A DNA stretch of 64,000 nt, taken from contig NZ_CP108131.1 in NCBI RefSeq assembly GCF_036203305.1, forward strand, positions 6,138,001 through 6,202,000, written 5' to 3'. The position numbers were made by a program, and so were the translations under genes. Shown here piece by piece: positions 27,409 to 34,903 of this stretch. The notes beneath the pieces were generated by a model. That model was given only the letters and a program-made list of their open reading frames with translations. It did not search any database and was not told the origin of the DNA. This DNA is from Streptomyces sp. NBC_00190. Its GTDB lineage: Bacteria > Actinomycetota > Actinomycetes > Streptomycetales > Streptomycetaceae. The first letter of the stretch is position 1. Every line of letters starts with the position of its first letter.

Positions 27409-29025
27409 TCAGACGACTGGCGGCAGCGGTGCCCTGTGGGCGCTCGCTGCCCGGTCGTCCAGCGACACCGGTGCGGGCTCCGGATGCGGCGGACACGTGA
27501 CACGCCGTCCCGCGATGTCACCTGTCAGCAGATACCGCTCCACGTGACGGTCCACGCAGTCATTGCGTCCGCCGACCACTCCGTGGGTGCCGGATCCTTT
27601 CTCCGTGACCAGCGCGGCCTCGGCGCCGAGCCGCCGCTGGAGCTCCAGCGCGCCTGGGTACGGGGTCGCCCCGTCCCGCTCCGCCGCGACGATCAGCGTG
27701 CGCGGCAGCCGGGCCGGCCGCGCCCCGACGTCCACCGGCCGCCGCCGCGCGCGCACCGGCCAGTCGGCGCACGGCAGGTTCAGGAAGGCGTTGGCCCAGG
27801 TCTCGAAGGGAGCCGTACGGGCCAGTCCGGTGTTGTCGCGGTCCCAGGTCTCCCAGTCCGCGGGCCAAGGGGCGTCGTTGCACAGCACCGCCGTGTAGAC
27901 GGCCGTCGCGTTCTCGGCCTCGGCCGCGGCCGCCGGGTCGGGAGCCGCCTGCCGTACGAGCTCCGCCGGATCGCCGCGCAGGAACGACGCCAGGGCCGCC
28001 GCGCGGTCCGGCCACACGTCGTCGTAGTAGGCGGCCTTGAGGTAGGCGGCCTGGAGCTCGCCGGTGCCGACGCGGCCGCCGGCGGGGGTGCGGGCCACCG
28101 CGTCCCGGACGCGCTCGTAGCTCGCCCGCACGGCCTCCGGGGTGGAGCCGAGGCCGTACGTGGCGTGGTGGCGGGCCGCCCAGGCCCGGAAGTCGTACCA
28201 GCGGCGCTCGAATCCGGGTGCCTGGTCGAGGTTGTTGCGGTACCAGACGCGGCGCGGGTCGGGATCGACCGCCGAGTCGAAGACCATGCGGCGGACGTGG
28301 CCCGGGTACAGGGTGGCGTACACCGCGCCGAGGTAGGTCCCGTACGAGGCGCCCATGAAGGTCAGCTTCTCCTCGCCGAGCGCGGCGCGCAGTACGTGCA
28401 GATCGCGGGCGTTGTCCGGCGTCGTGTAGTACGGCAGGGCGGCGCCGGCCCGCCGCGCGCAGCCGCGCCCGTACGCCCGGGCTTCGGCGGCGCGCCGCTC
28501 CTTGTACGCGGGGGAGGGACGGGCCGGGACCTGGGTGGGGCCCCCGGTGCGAGCGGCGGGGTCCTGGCAGGACAGCGGGGCGGAGCGGGCGACGCCGCGC
28601 GGGGCGTAGCCGACGAGGTCGTAGGCGGCGGCGATCCGCTCCCACCCGGGGAGTCCGGCGACGAGCGGGAAGTACATGCCGGAGGCGCCGGGTCCGCCGG
28701 GGTTGTGGACGAGCGCGCCCTGGCGGGCGGCGCCGCGGGCACCGCTCGCCGGGACCCGGCTGACGGTCAGGGAGATCTGCGGGCCGTCGGGGCGGGCGTA
28801 GTCGAGCGGTACGCGCAGGGTCGCGCAGCGCACGGGCGCGGACAGCCCCTCGGCCGCGGGGCAGGCCCCGAAGCGGAGGCCGGAGGCGGCGGCGCGTCGG
28901 GCGGCGAGGCCGGCGCCGGCCGACTCGGCGGCGGGGCGGGGCTCGGCGGCGGCGGGGGTGGCGCCGCACACGGTGAGGGAGAGGACCGCCGCTGCGGCTC
29001 CGTGGCGTACCAGTGCCGTCCACAT
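27409..29025 (-). CDS. secreted alpha/beta-hydrolase peptidase (TAP family)
   Basis: A 538-aa protein with a Sec signal peptide (about residues 1-27, ending ATPAAAE). The alpha/beta-hydrolase core has the oxyanion loop LVHNPGGPGASG, nucleophile elbow FMGASYGTYLG (Ser), Asp in VAAERDGATPYPG and His in GSGTHGVVGGRNDCVD, the layout of Streptomyces tripeptidyl aminopeptidases (TAP C-terminal domain). It probably removes short peptides from protein N-termini outside the cell. A 10-bp perfect palindrome lies just upstream of its start. It is on the same strand as the DUF692/TIGR04222 pair, but 147 nt separate them. Confidence 0.88.
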   Translation of the reverse strand: MWTALVRHGAAAAVLSLTVCGATPAAAEPRPAAESAGAGLAARRAAASGLRFGACPAAEGLSAPVRCATLRVPLDYARPDGPQISLTVSRVPASGARGAARQGALVHNPGGPGASGMYFPLVAGLPGWERIAAAYDLVGYAPRGVARSAPLSCQDPAARTGGPTQVPARPSPAYKERRAAEARAYGRGCARRAGAALPYYTTPDNARDLHVLRAALGEEKLTFMGASYGTYLGAVYATLYPGHVRRMVFDSAVDPDPRRVWYRNNLDQAPGFERRWYDFRAWAARHHATYGLGSTPEAVRASYERVRDAVARTPAGGRVGTGELQAAYLKAAYYDDVWPDRAAALASFLRGDPAELVRQAAPDPAAAAEAENATAVYTAVLCNDAPWPADWETWDRDNTGLARTAPFETWANAFLNLPCADWPVRARRRPVDVGARPARLPRTLIVAAERDGATPYPGALELQRRLGAEAALVTEKGSGTHGVVGGRNDCVDRHVERYLLTGDIAGRRVTCPPHPEPAPVSLDDRAASAHRAPLPPVV

Positions 29026-29172: not shown

Positions 29173-30228
29173 TCAGGAGCTGCTGGAACAGCTGGAGCCG
29201 GACGAACTGCTGCAACTCGAACTGCTGCCGCCGCCACAGCTGGAACTGCTGCCCGAGCAACTGGAGCTGCTGCTTCCGGAGCAGCTGGAGCCGCTTCCCC
29301 CGCAGCTGCTGCCGGACGACCCGCAGCCCGATCCCGAGCCACAGCTCGAACCGCCCCCTCCGCTCCCGCCGCCGTCGCTCGCGGCGCACCAGACCACCGG
29401 CAGGACGTCGGCGGAGGACGTGTGCGAGGAGCCCGGGTCCGAGTGGTGCGGACGGGATCGCGACTGGGCCGCGGCCAGCCGGGTGCCGCGCGCGGCGGGC
29501 ACCAGCTGCCCGCGCAGGTACGGGTCCCGCAGGCCCCGCAGGCCGGACAACGCGGTCTGCGCCTGCGGGGTCCGGTCGTTCACGTAGCGCGCGCGGATGT
29601 CGCGCAGCGCCCGCTGCCCGGCCGGGGTGATCCGCGCTCTGGCCCGCGCCGCGCAGATCCCGCCCGCCACGATTCCGAGCAGCAGGACGGGCAGCACCTT
29701 GACGATGAACGGCACCTGCGTGCCGGGGTCGACGGCGAACCCGACGAAGGTGAGCGGCAGCGACACCGGCACGAGGAATCCGCACACCACGGCCTGGGTC
29801 AGGCCCCAGCGCCGCCATGTCCGCCCCCATCCGGGCGGCGAGAGCAGCCCGCGGGCGGCCAGCGCGTCCCCGGTCTCCTGGACGGCCGGGTCGAGCATGG
29901 CGGCGTAGCGCAGCTGGTAGAGCCATCCCGAGGGCGCGCCGCGGTGAGCCTGCAGGACCGCGCGCTCGGCGGGGTCGCCCGCCCGCGCCCCGGGGCTCAC
30001 GTGGACGATCCCGGGGCCGCCCATGATCAGCCGGCCGTCCCCGAGCATCGAGACGAGGGCGGTGTCCACGACGTTGCCGGGGCCGCCCGTCATGAACGCG
30101 GCCTCGGACAGGTCGTGGAGGACCGGCGCCGGTCCGGCCGGACGCGGCCGGGCCCGGCGCAGGCCGAGGAAGAGCAGGCCGCTGGAGGCGGCGACGGCGA
30201 TCCAGAGGGCGAGGGCGAGGAGGTTCAC
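29173..30228 (-). CDS. TIGR04222-type membrane protein with Ser/Gly/Cys repeat tail (candidate RiPP precursor)
   Basis: A 351-aa protein in two parts. Residues 1-275 resemble TIGR04222 proteins: one membrane helix at 3-21, a cytosolic part with [17 protein letters not shown] and [19 protein letters not shown], and two helices at about 141-163 and 174-195. Residues 282-351 are almost only Ser, Gly and Cys, with Cys at 281, 296, 302, 309, 316, 324, 331, 339 and 347, spaced 6-8 apart. It starts at a GTG overlapping the stop of the DUF692 gene by 4 nt, with GGGAGG before it. DUF692 enzymes modify Cys residues of ribosomal peptides, so the tail is the obvious substrate. That it is modified is inference; the fold and the repeats are plain. 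Confidence 0.82.
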
Positions 30229-31577
30229 GCGGCCCTCCCCACGAGGGCCCGGGCCCAGCGCGCCACCCGCCGGGGCGGCCGCGCCCCGGCCCGGTCGCGC
30301 CACCACGCCGTGAGCCGGCGCCGGGCGGCCGGGTCGGCCGGCAGGTCCTGGATCAGCAGGTGCTCGGCGAAGTCCAGCGCGTCCCGGCGGTATCCGCCGG
30401 TCATGGGACGGCCCTTGGCATAGGCGAGGAAGGCAGTGCGGTACGGCTCGTCACCGCCCAGGATCGAGGGCAGCTCCGGAGCCAGCCTGGCCACCACGTC
30501 GGCCCGCTTGGCGGCCAGTGCCCGGGCCTGCACCCGGATCCGCTGCCGGTCGAACCCCTCGGGCACGGGCGTTCCGGCCACCAGCGCCGACAGCAGCGCG
30601 GCCTGCCCGAGCCCTACGCGGGTACGCGCGGCCCCGTCGTCCCCGGCGGGGCGGGGATCCGGTGCGGCAACGGGCCGGTCGGGTGCTGCGGGTGCATCGG
30701 GTGCGGCGGGTGCGGCAGAGCCGACGGGGACGCCGGGGGCGGCGGGTGCCGTGGCCGCCGGGCCCGCCGTCAGTACCGCGCGGATCGCCGCCAGCTCGCC
30801 CGCCAGCTCCGGCTCCGGCGGGAAGTCGTCGTCCCGCTCCAGGAGGACGCCCGGCGGGTCCACCCGGGAGCGGAGCTCGGCGAGCACGTCGAGGACCAAC
30901 GGCGGCACCGGGTGGGCGTGCGTGTCGTGCCAGACACCGCCCCGTTCGACCCCGCCCGCCACGTGTACGTACGCCAGCGCCTCCAGCGGGATCGCGTCCA
31001 GCACGGCGGCCGGGTCCTCGCCCCGGTTGACCCGGTTGGTGTGCAGGTTGGCCACGTCGATGAGCAGCCGCACACCGGTCCGCTCGACCAGCTCCGTCAG
31101 GAACTGCCCCTCCGTCAGCTCCTCGCCCGGCCACGAGATCAGCGCGGCGATGTTCTCCAGCGCGAGCGGCACGGGCAGCGCGTCCTGCGCGATGCGTACG
31201 TTCTCGCACAGCACGTCCAGCGCGTCGCGCGTGCGCGGCACCGGCAGCAGGTGCCCGGCCTCCAGCGCGGGCGAGGAGGTGCGGACGAAGGCGATGTGCT
31301 CGGTGACGAGCGGCGCCCCCAGCGCCACCGCCCGTTCCCCGAGCGCCGTCAGCTTCGCCGGGTCGGGGCGATCGGCGCCGCCGAGGCCCAGCGAGACCCC
31401 GTGCGGCACGACGCGGGTGCCCCGCTCGCGCAGCCTCAGCAGAGCCTCGGGCAGGTGGCCCGGGCAGATGTTCTCGGCCACCACCTCGACCCAGTCCAGG
31501 CCGGGCAGCCGCTCGACGGCGTCCGCGATCTCCGGCCGCCAGCCGATGCCCACCCCCAGGTGTGCCATGGGCTTCAT
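30225..31577 (-). CDS. DUF692 multinuclear non-heme iron oxidase (MNIO) with C-terminal helical domain
   Basis: A 450-aa protein. Residues 5-270 are the DUF692 TIM barrel with the expected metal-site segments: E36 in [10 protein letters not shown]59 in [10 protein letters not shown]93/H94 in VTEHIAF, E141 in ALENIA, D174/N177 in [12 protein letters not shown]205 in YVHVAGG, D218/H220 in HDTHAHPVP and E248 in [10 protein letters not shown] Pro/Ala linker (about 273-313) joins a helical domain (318-410, [33 protein letters not shown]) that recalls the DUF2063-type partner proteins encoded beside other MNIO genes. Characterised relatives (MbnB, TglH and others) use iron and oxygen to modify peptide Cys. 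A 4-nt overlap couples it to the Cys-tail protein. ATG at 31577 follows GGGAGGGG. An ECF-type promoter lies 85 nt upstream. Confidence 0.9.
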
Positions 31578-31661
31578 GTCTTTCGCCCCCCTCCCGGCGC
31601 ATCTCATCGCGCCGTGTGCCGAAGTGATGGCCCCGGCGGAGTCGAGCCAACCGCGAAGAGG

Positions 31662-31688
31662 GACGTTCAGAGCAACATTTGAGGTTCC
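31662..31688 (-). promoter_or_regulatory. ECF sigma-type promoter for the DUF692 operon
   Basis: Reading the minus strand, GGAACC (31688-31683), a 17-nt spacer and CGTC (31665-31662) match the general ECF consensus (GGAAC, N16-17, CGTC). It lies between the PTH2-like gene and DUF692 and predicts a leader of about 80 nt. It would make the operon stress-inducible. Confidence 0.55.
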
Positions 31689-31725
31689 GCCGGACCGGAG
31701 AAAGTCCGTCCGACCGGGAAGTCCG

Positions 31726-32478
31726 TCAGAGCCGGGCCCGCAGGGCCGGGTGGTCGGAGACCACCGTCGCGCTGCCGGGAGCGATCTCGGTGAAACCGGC
31801 ATCGCGGACGACCGGCAGCCCGCCGGTGCTCAGCTCCGCCCACCGCTCGCGCGGCGCCGTCCGTACGGCCAGTGCGAAACCGGACTCCTGCCAGGCGGCC
31901 CGCTCCGCGTCCGTCAGCTCCCACCACGCCAGTTGCGCGGCGTGCCCGGCCTGGGCCATCGCCTTGCCCGCCGACATGTCGAGATCGGGGTTGAGCCACA
32001 GCACGGGCAGGTCCGGCCCGGTGGCCGCGGTGACCGGCTCCGGGTCGTCCAGGTCGGTGCCCGACACCTGGAGCTTGGCGAGCTCCTTGGGCCAGCCGTC
32101 CAGGGGCACCGGCGGGAAGACCCGTACCTCCGAGGTGTCACCGTGCACCGTGACGCCGGGCAGGGTCTGCGCCTTGCGCCACTCCGCCCCGCGCGCCCGG
32201 CGGACCACCTTGCGGATCCGCGCGTCCTGCCAGTCGCGGACGGCCTCGGCCCACTCGCCCTCGCCCCGCGACCGCTCGTCGGTCAGCAGGACCAGCACCG
32301 CGCGGGCCGCCGTCTGAAGCGCGTCCGTCCGGGCGGGCGGCTCGGCCTTCTCGATCCGCACCACCAGCGGCAGGACGAACTGCGGGGCCTCGTCGCGCAG
32401 GACGTGCTCCTGCCGGAAGGGGCTGTCCGCCCCGACCGCGGGTACGCCGGTGGTGTCGTCGGTGTGCTGGCTGCTCAT
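31726..32478 (-). CDS. PTH2-like peptidyl-tRNA hydrolase family protein
   Basis: A 250-aa cytosolic protein. The C-terminal 120 residues resemble the PTH2 fold: [24 protein letters not shown] carries the Lys, Gln and His expected at the start of PTH2 helix 1, and [16 protein letters not shown] and [17 protein letters not shown] follow. The first 125 residues are an extra region ([24 protein letters not shown]). Bacterial PTH2-like proteins are little studied, so release of peptidyl-tRNA is only possible. It lies upstream of the MNIO gene on the same strand, but an intervening promoter suggests separate control. Confidence 0.7.
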
Positions 32479-34711: not shown

Positions 34712-34903
34712 ATGGACCAGCCCGAACAGGACGCGTCGTACTGCCCCGCCCCGGCGGCCCCGGTCGCCGCCGTGGCGGGGCCGCCGTACGCCGACTGCCT
34801 GGAGTGCGGCCGGCCCACCGAGTACGGGGTCGCGACCCCGGGCGTGGTGCTCTGCCCCGTGTGCGAATGGCAGGAAGCGCAGCGCACGGCCTGCTCCGGC
34901 TGA
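34712..34903 (+). CDS. small zinc-ribbon-like protein
   Basis: A 63-aa protein with two Cys pairs, CLECG and CPVC, spaced about 22 residues apart as in a zinc ribbon, between a Pro/Ala-rich N-terminus and a short tail with one more Cys. The start ATG at 34712 has no strong ribosome site. It starts 14 nt after the permease gene. The function is unknown. Confidence 0.55.
   Translation: MDQPEQDASYCPAPAAPVAAVAGPPYADCLECGRPTEYGVATPGVVLCPVCEWQEAQRTACSG

Follow-up and report, generated by a model that had tools for sequence, protein, structure and literature searches.

In a 64,000-nucleotide stretch of the genome of Streptomyces sp. NBC_00190 (the window; NZ_CP108131.1), the gene for an MNIO (DUF692) enzyme overlaps that for a TIGR04222 membrane protein ending in a tail of Ser, Gly and Cys. 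We propose that the MNIO and a partner domain oxidise the cysteines of this membrane-tethered, probably cytosolic tail, which would serve as a metal or redox buffer, and that the enzyme probably has a further substrate; we give this reading a probability of roughly 0.6. A preliminary description of the locus, made from the sequence alone, had called it an undescribed system. It is not, because the gene order is already listed by Antoine et al. 2025 (PMC12452194), in Table 2 and the section on TIGR04222 proteins, where subsets of these proteins are named as putative MNIO substrates. The pair is real, was in print as a candidate and is now better founded. New here are a partner-like domain fused to the enzyme, the association of tail and MNIO across genomes, the retention of the enzyme in tailless species and charge evidence for a cytosolic tail.

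The window MNIO matches PF05114 with 260 bits (cut-off 25). As the preliminary description had stated, its metal-ligand segments are complete: those holding H59, H94, E141, N142, D174, N177, H205, H217, D218, H220 and E247 are invariant among 47 aligned MNIOs, and the metal-ligand-type positions are constant in 72 sampled MNIOs with the single exception of H179Y. We take these residues to be the iron ligands known from MbnB and TglH, an assumption that the fold match helps. The AlphaFold model (mean predicted local distance difference test score 81) comprises a barrel, a low-confidence linker (residues 276-308) and a helical domain (311-449), and the barrel matches MbnB and TglH in a fold comparison covering the barrel only. 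The best NCBIfam match is BufB (NF050167) at 178 bits; membership of that family was rejected against its equivalog cut-off of 310.

TIGR04222 matches the neighbouring protein with 147.6 bits (domain cut-off 43), and the two genes share four nucleotides (GTGA, 30225-30228). Both this overlap and the composition of the tail had been described correctly: 67 of the final 70 residues are Ser, Gly or Cys (38, 21 and 8, with 2 Ala and 1 Asp). Counted from the WCA motif, the cysteines are 15, 6, 7, 7, 8, 7, 8 and 8 residues apart. When 9 cysteines were placed at random in 72 residues 200,000 times, a minimum spacing of at least 6 arose in 0.02% of placements and a variance as low as that observed in 2%; the spacing is more even than chance. 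Among the best 120 of 680 homologues, 113 tails carry 7-10 cysteines each, the spacings peak at 6-9 and fall below 6 in only 5 of 876 cases, and a WCA-type motif precedes most tails. The candidate substrate is a 351-residue membrane protein and not a short leader-bearing precursor. No dedicated maturation protease or exporter was recognised in the conserved block, in keeping with the earlier remark that there is no leader-core split or exporter. The globular domain weakly resembles GOLPH3/GPP34, a likeness that a Foldseek search with the model did not confirm (no match at E 0.001), and when the TIGR04222 profile was searched against solved structures, its top matches fell on the low-complexity tail. 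At one locus (L085 6747-8577, G260) a row of several TIGR04222-type pieces precedes the MNIO, and at least two frames there end in a Gly/Ser/Cys tail.

Do tail and enzyme occur together? Across 396 Actinomycetota genomes, TIGR04222 exceeds its cut-off in 26 and PF05114 in 30, with both in 25; in 324 genomes of the class the two are found in 89 and 80. We read the tails of TIGR04222 proteins in 79 genomes, namely 76 of the 93 of the class sample (E 1e-8) plus G441, G494 and G329. The other 17 of those 93 are Streptomyces read before, and the reading excludes second TIGR04222 matches (G791 C463, G771 C85) and a contig-end case (G013). A Gly/Ser/Cys tail is present in 44 of 49 genomes with an MNIO (43 of 48 without G564, which a loose rule miscounted), in 1 of 28 TIGR04222 genomes without one and in 0 of 2 genomes with only a bufferin-type MNIO (G691, G745). 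The five MNIO genomes without a tail are four Streptomyces and G654; in G590, the sole tail genome without an MNIO, a fragment of one lies at the end of the contig. A stricter count per protein (n = 94), with G691, G745 and G564 set to no MNIO and G564 also to no tail, gave 47 with both, 13 with MNIO only, 33 with neither and 1 with tail only. G564 itself (L273, L325) has a tailless TIGR04222 protein and, far away, a truncated MNIO; in its close relative G642 (L271) the MNIO and the tail protein are whole and adjacent. The pairing is family-wide, and the check named in the preliminary description, independent occurrence of the two genes, gives a one-sided answer in this sample: Cys tails were not seen without an MNIO (the exception being at a contig end), and MNIOs are common without a tail. 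We regard the tail as a likely substrate of the MNIO, as had been proposed.

The preliminary description recognised the two genes but was incomplete, as it missed the partner domain. The MNIO barrel stops near residue 270, and the 134 C-terminal residues form an extra domain that matches, by phmmer, a separate small gene directly 3' of the MNIO at three loci of other genera. A profile made from the window domain together with its matches locates such a domain 3' of the MNIO in 89 of 89 Streptomyces MNIO loci, some of which lack TIGR04222 (81 fused, 8 separate), and, in other genera, in 32 of 34 loci linked to TIGR04222 (9 fused, 23 separate), or 90 fused and 31 separate over 123 loci. The two misses among the 34 are L267 and a contig-end fragment, L287, and the profile did not find the domain in three MNIO loci without TIGR04222. 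It is fused in all 80 named Streptomyces loci, and fused versus separate requires 2 changes on the MNIO tree (79 Streptomyces rows). We infer that this domain may act as the partner of the enzyme. PF09836 is matched weakly by 5 of 33 members (best E 1.3e-4). PF26136, whose name we take to be SCO6045-like C-terminal domain, is precomputed on 120 of 120 relatives among the matches listed; our Pfam scan gave no PF26136 match. The domain is helical and confident in the model and seems not long enough to be a full RRE (RiPP recognition element, RiPP being ribosomally synthesised and post-translationally modified peptide). Searching the sequences of solved structures with the partner profile gave nothing relevant (best E 0.13), and DUF2063 proteins were absent among the 50 fold matches listed, in the comparison that covered the barrel only. 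The fusion passages of PMC12452194 (supplements outside scope) do not cover a partner fused to an MNIO, and a literature search on fused-MNIO wordings and PF26136 listed a match concerning another system.

How might such a system work? The MNIO barrel with its C-terminally fused partner domain would oxidatively modify cysteines in the tail of the TIGR04222 protein, the product of the overlapping downstream gene, perhaps to thiooxazole or oxazolone/thioamide-like groups. The tail would stay on its membrane anchor with no cleavage and no export, globular domain and tail would lie on the cytosolic face beside the enzyme, and the modified tail would most likely be a tethered buffer, either for metal (copper first) or for redox. 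Thiooxazole- or oxazolone-like chemistry on the tail is in our view an even bet, and copper as the main role somewhat short of that. More tentatively, the locus may be a housekeeping protein-modification system and not a natural-product cluster, in which an MNIO with a built-in partner decorates a permanently tethered cytosolic Cys brush in one half of the genus and, in the rest of it, serves a second substrate under equal or stronger constraint and the same upstream element. Like the bufferin system (BufA/BufB/BufC), the pair here would combine an MNIO, a DUF2063-type partner and a Cys-rich substrate, but the candidate substrate is a multi-pass membrane protein instead of a signal-peptide peptide, and the partner is fused and short. 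MbnBC (methanobactin) and TglHI (3-thiaglutamate) differ in their short precursor peptides, separate partners and different substrates.

The range of new peptide chemistry traced to MNIO enzymes is growing fast, and the passages on TIGR04222 in PMC12452194 leave the modification of these proteins open because partner genes seemed to be missing, as they apparently are from many TIGR04222/MNIO clusters. If the fused domain acts as a partner, the Streptomyces enzyme would be a single-polypeptide system that can be expressed directly. If a tethered tail is modified in place, MNIO chemistry would extend past secreted or excised peptides. Moreover, tail-bearing and tailless species offer natural material for finding a second substrate.

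Several observations weigh against this reading. First, the tail-MNIO association (Fisher p 1e-14) is uncorrected for descent. An independent-pairs test on well-supported branches yielded 4 pairs, with 1.7 agreeing and 0.0 opposing on average, a number that gives the test little power. In G654, moreover, the MNIO adjoins a tail without Cys. Second, in our Pfam scan the window's own partner domain matches neither PF09836 nor any other family. Of 7 DUF2063 proteins encoded next to bufferin-type MNIOs, the partner profile matches only 1 (E 2.4e-5, from a small set) and misses the other 6, and a profile-profile comparison with 8 DUF2063 proteins is weak (probability 40%). Third, by a crude rule 67 of 120 Streptomyces relatives have four called membrane segments and 1 has two, and these were omitted from the charge count below; in several members outside Streptomyces, a fourth hydrophobic segment precedes the tail. 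Finally, many Streptomyces have the enzyme without the tail: 26 of 60 sampled MNIO loci (L210 among them lies at a contig end), and in 40 tailless loci a six-frame scan for a Gly/Ser/Cys tail of any gene found 0 (loci, not whole genomes).

On which side of the membrane does the tail lie? PMC12452194 places it outside, in the periplasm, on a published topology and AlphaFold reading. A bufferin-like envelope copper chelator, modified before or during insertion, would then be the outcome, and the fourth hydrophobic segment would put the tail outside in the proteins that have it, as that paper proposes. In the window protein and its close relatives, the corresponding stretch instead carries 2-4 Arg/Lys (117 of the 120 proteins read) and forms a confident short helix in the model, in which residues 1-258 are confident and the tail is of low confidence. 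The charges flanking the other segments also argue against an outside tail. No K/R precedes the first transmembrane segment (TM1) and several stand at and after its end; TM2 begins RTWRRWG, the TM2-TM3 loop has no K/R, and ARARAR follows TM3. Of the 120 relatives, 52 have three called segments, and these show a strong K/R bias of 7-14 towards an inside position of domain and C-terminus. This bias would put tail and globular domain on the enzyme's own, cytosolic side, a placement that we favour, with somewhat less assurance than the tail's role as substrate. The charge pattern disagrees with the published periplasmic placement, which we consider rather unlikely for the window protein; other genera may differ.

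What does the enzyme do where the tail is absent? Of 150 Streptomyces genomes, 141 have PF05114 and 129 a TIGR04222 match above its cut-off. The 60 loci sampled from the 141 (in order from G396 to G459, omitting genomes without a typical match) comprise 34 with a tail protein, including L221, hand-labelled as tail-bearing with 3 Cys, 23 with only a tailless paralogue and 3 with neither; in an earlier phylum sample, 6 of 19 Streptomyces with an MNIO had the tail. A hidden Gly/Ser/Cys tail gene beside the MNIO in tailless loci was ruled out by the six-frame scan. Its rule (40 residues containing at least 26 Ser/Gly and 3 or more Cys with Ser/Gly neighbours) recovered the tail in 40 of 40 tail-bearing loci, and the tailless set includes L077 and L078, which are halves of one genome. 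A scan of 20 loci confined to the three frames on the MNIO strand tested this poorly, since its filter missed known tails ending long frames, such as that of L063. Tail presence requires 2 changes on the MNIO tree (79 Streptomyces rows), with one tailless clade of 38 rows, so that the tail protein appears to have been lost in a large Streptomyces clade, mainly once. For the MNIO barrel, the median dN/dS (ratio of nonsynonymous to synonymous substitution rates) is 0.137 over the 39 tailless genomes and 0.205 over the 33 with a tail; for the partner domain the values are 0.287 and 0.310. That the enzyme is kept and constrained after loss of the tail makes one or more other substrates probable.

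The same retention has a rival explanation, in which the low-complexity tail stays unmodified and, as a Cys brush, binds metal or forms disulfides on its own, and the MNIO acts on another substrate, the two being neighbours through shared history or regulation. Where the tail is absent, the MNIO retains its ligands and evolves under constraint at least as strong, the upstream element described below stands in all tailless loci tested, and a tailless TIGR04222 paralogue and a PTH2 (peptidyl-tRNA hydrolase) gene recur with the locus, all of which such a brush would accommodate. It accounts poorly for Cys tails that accompany the MNIO across genera even where the genes are unlinked, and for the truncated MNIO and tailless protein of G564 beside the intact pair of its relative G642. 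We consider an unmodified tail improbable and continue to prefer a modified one.

A nearby Cys-rich, zinc-ribbon-like peptide (59-81 aa, conserved, ending ..CEWQEAQRTACSG; window 34712-34903, plus strand) is a very improbable candidate for the other substrate, in tailless species or perhaps everywhere. This Cys6 peptide occurs in 104 of 150 Streptomyces genomes and in 0 of the 9 without PF05114. Where one contig carries both genes, the peptide is encoded on the same strand as the MNIO in 21 of 23 tailless genomes and in 0 of 22 with the tail, and at some tailless loci its gene stands immediately before PTH2. Against this candidate, it was not found in 37 of 141 MNIO genomes, its CxxC/CxxC pattern resembles that of a common zinc site, a single inherited rearrangement may account for the difference in orientation, and other genes of the tailless loci remain candidates. 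The peptide shares EWQE with StdA, the precursor of another Streptomyces MNIO cluster, from which EWQE is cleaved as a C-terminal motif (PMC13174530); this is possibly a coincidence.

A 21-nt element lies upstream of the MNIO in 152 of 158 Streptomyces loci, 103 of 109 with the tail and 49 of 49 without, and the six loci lacking it all have a separate partner gene. The window's own genome holds one exact copy and two places at 3 mismatches. With half sites CTCAAAT and CTCTGAA 11 nt apart, the element is perhaps a response-regulator site. Its reading as a mini open reading frame (ATG-TTG-CTC-TGA) was rejected because the ATG is lost in variants such as CAAC and CAAG, and an Rfam scan of 31400-31900 found nothing. 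SCO6045 is probably the MNIO orthologue in S. coelicolor, given the match to SCO6039-SCO6042 and the presumed name of PF26136. As listed in PMC5069765, SCO6039-SCO6042 form the same neighbourhood as the window's. SCO6045 rises 3.0-fold in the wild type under oxidative stress, in a PMC4991794 table of genes deregulated in an hbpS-senS-senR mutant. This induction, the sole hint of function, suggests redox or sulfur stress no less than copper.

The window locus is a member of the published Adjamnio-II - MNIO - TIGR04222 type, which Table 2 of PMC12452194 lists with a peptidyl-tRNA hydrolase (PTH). Gene order (PTH-like, MNIO, TIGR04222) and domains agree, the PTH-like protein has 233-256 aa there and 250 here, and in both the Cys tail is proposed as substrate. 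The window differs in its fused partner-like domain and suggested cytosolic tail, against an often missing partner and a periplasmic tail in that paper, whose TIGR04222 section also reports that one third of TIGR04222 genomes lack an MNIO and more than a quarter of TIGR04222 proteins lack C-proximal Cys. Other TIGR04222 literature found was a single mention, in a Pseudonocardia bacteriocin cluster. Coordinates are given in Table 1; start codons in the gene calls are approximate.

Table 1. Features of the locus, in window positions
Feature	Position	Strand	Remarks
TAP-like alpha/beta hydrolase, syntenic downstream gene	27409-29025	minus	
TIGR04222 membrane protein with Ser/Gly/Cys tail, putative MNIO substrate	29173-30228	minus	351 aa, GTG start
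WCA motif and Ser/Gly/Cys tail, residues 280-351, 9 Cys	29176-29391	minus	predicted disordered
TM2-TM3, predicted transmembrane hairpin (residues 136-166 and 174-197)	29638-29823	minus	
TM1, predicted (residues 2-26)	30151-30225	minus	RRARPRP at and after its end; no K/R before
DUF692/MNIO enzyme with fused partner domain	30225-31577	minus	450 aa, ATG at 31577
Fused partner domain, last 134 residues, weakly DUF2063-like	30228-30629	minus	separate gene 3' of MNIO in other actinomycetes
MNIO catalytic TIM-barrel domain, residues 8-269	30771-31556	minus	
Conserved 21-nt element AACCTCAAATgttgCTCTGAA, upstream of MNIO	31666-31686	minus	
Peptidyl-tRNA hydrolase-like protein ('adjamnio-II' of PMC12452194), upstream gene of the cluster	31726-32478	minus	250 aa

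A DUF4142 protein adjoins the MNIO at another locus (L073 5386-6153; Pfam-confirmed in L073 only), and look-alikes recur beside the MNIO in L062, L064, L065, L075, L080 and others. Such genes often lie upstream of the MNIO in tail-bearing loci and downstream in tailless loci. The window's genome also encodes a second, diverged MNIO (C1, ~501,000-508,000; L097 2016-8981), closest to ApyH but far below its cut-off. Its neighbours are a radical SAM protein with a weak B12-binding match, a JmjC protein and an HExxH hydroxylase, and this region is likely a separate RiPP cluster.
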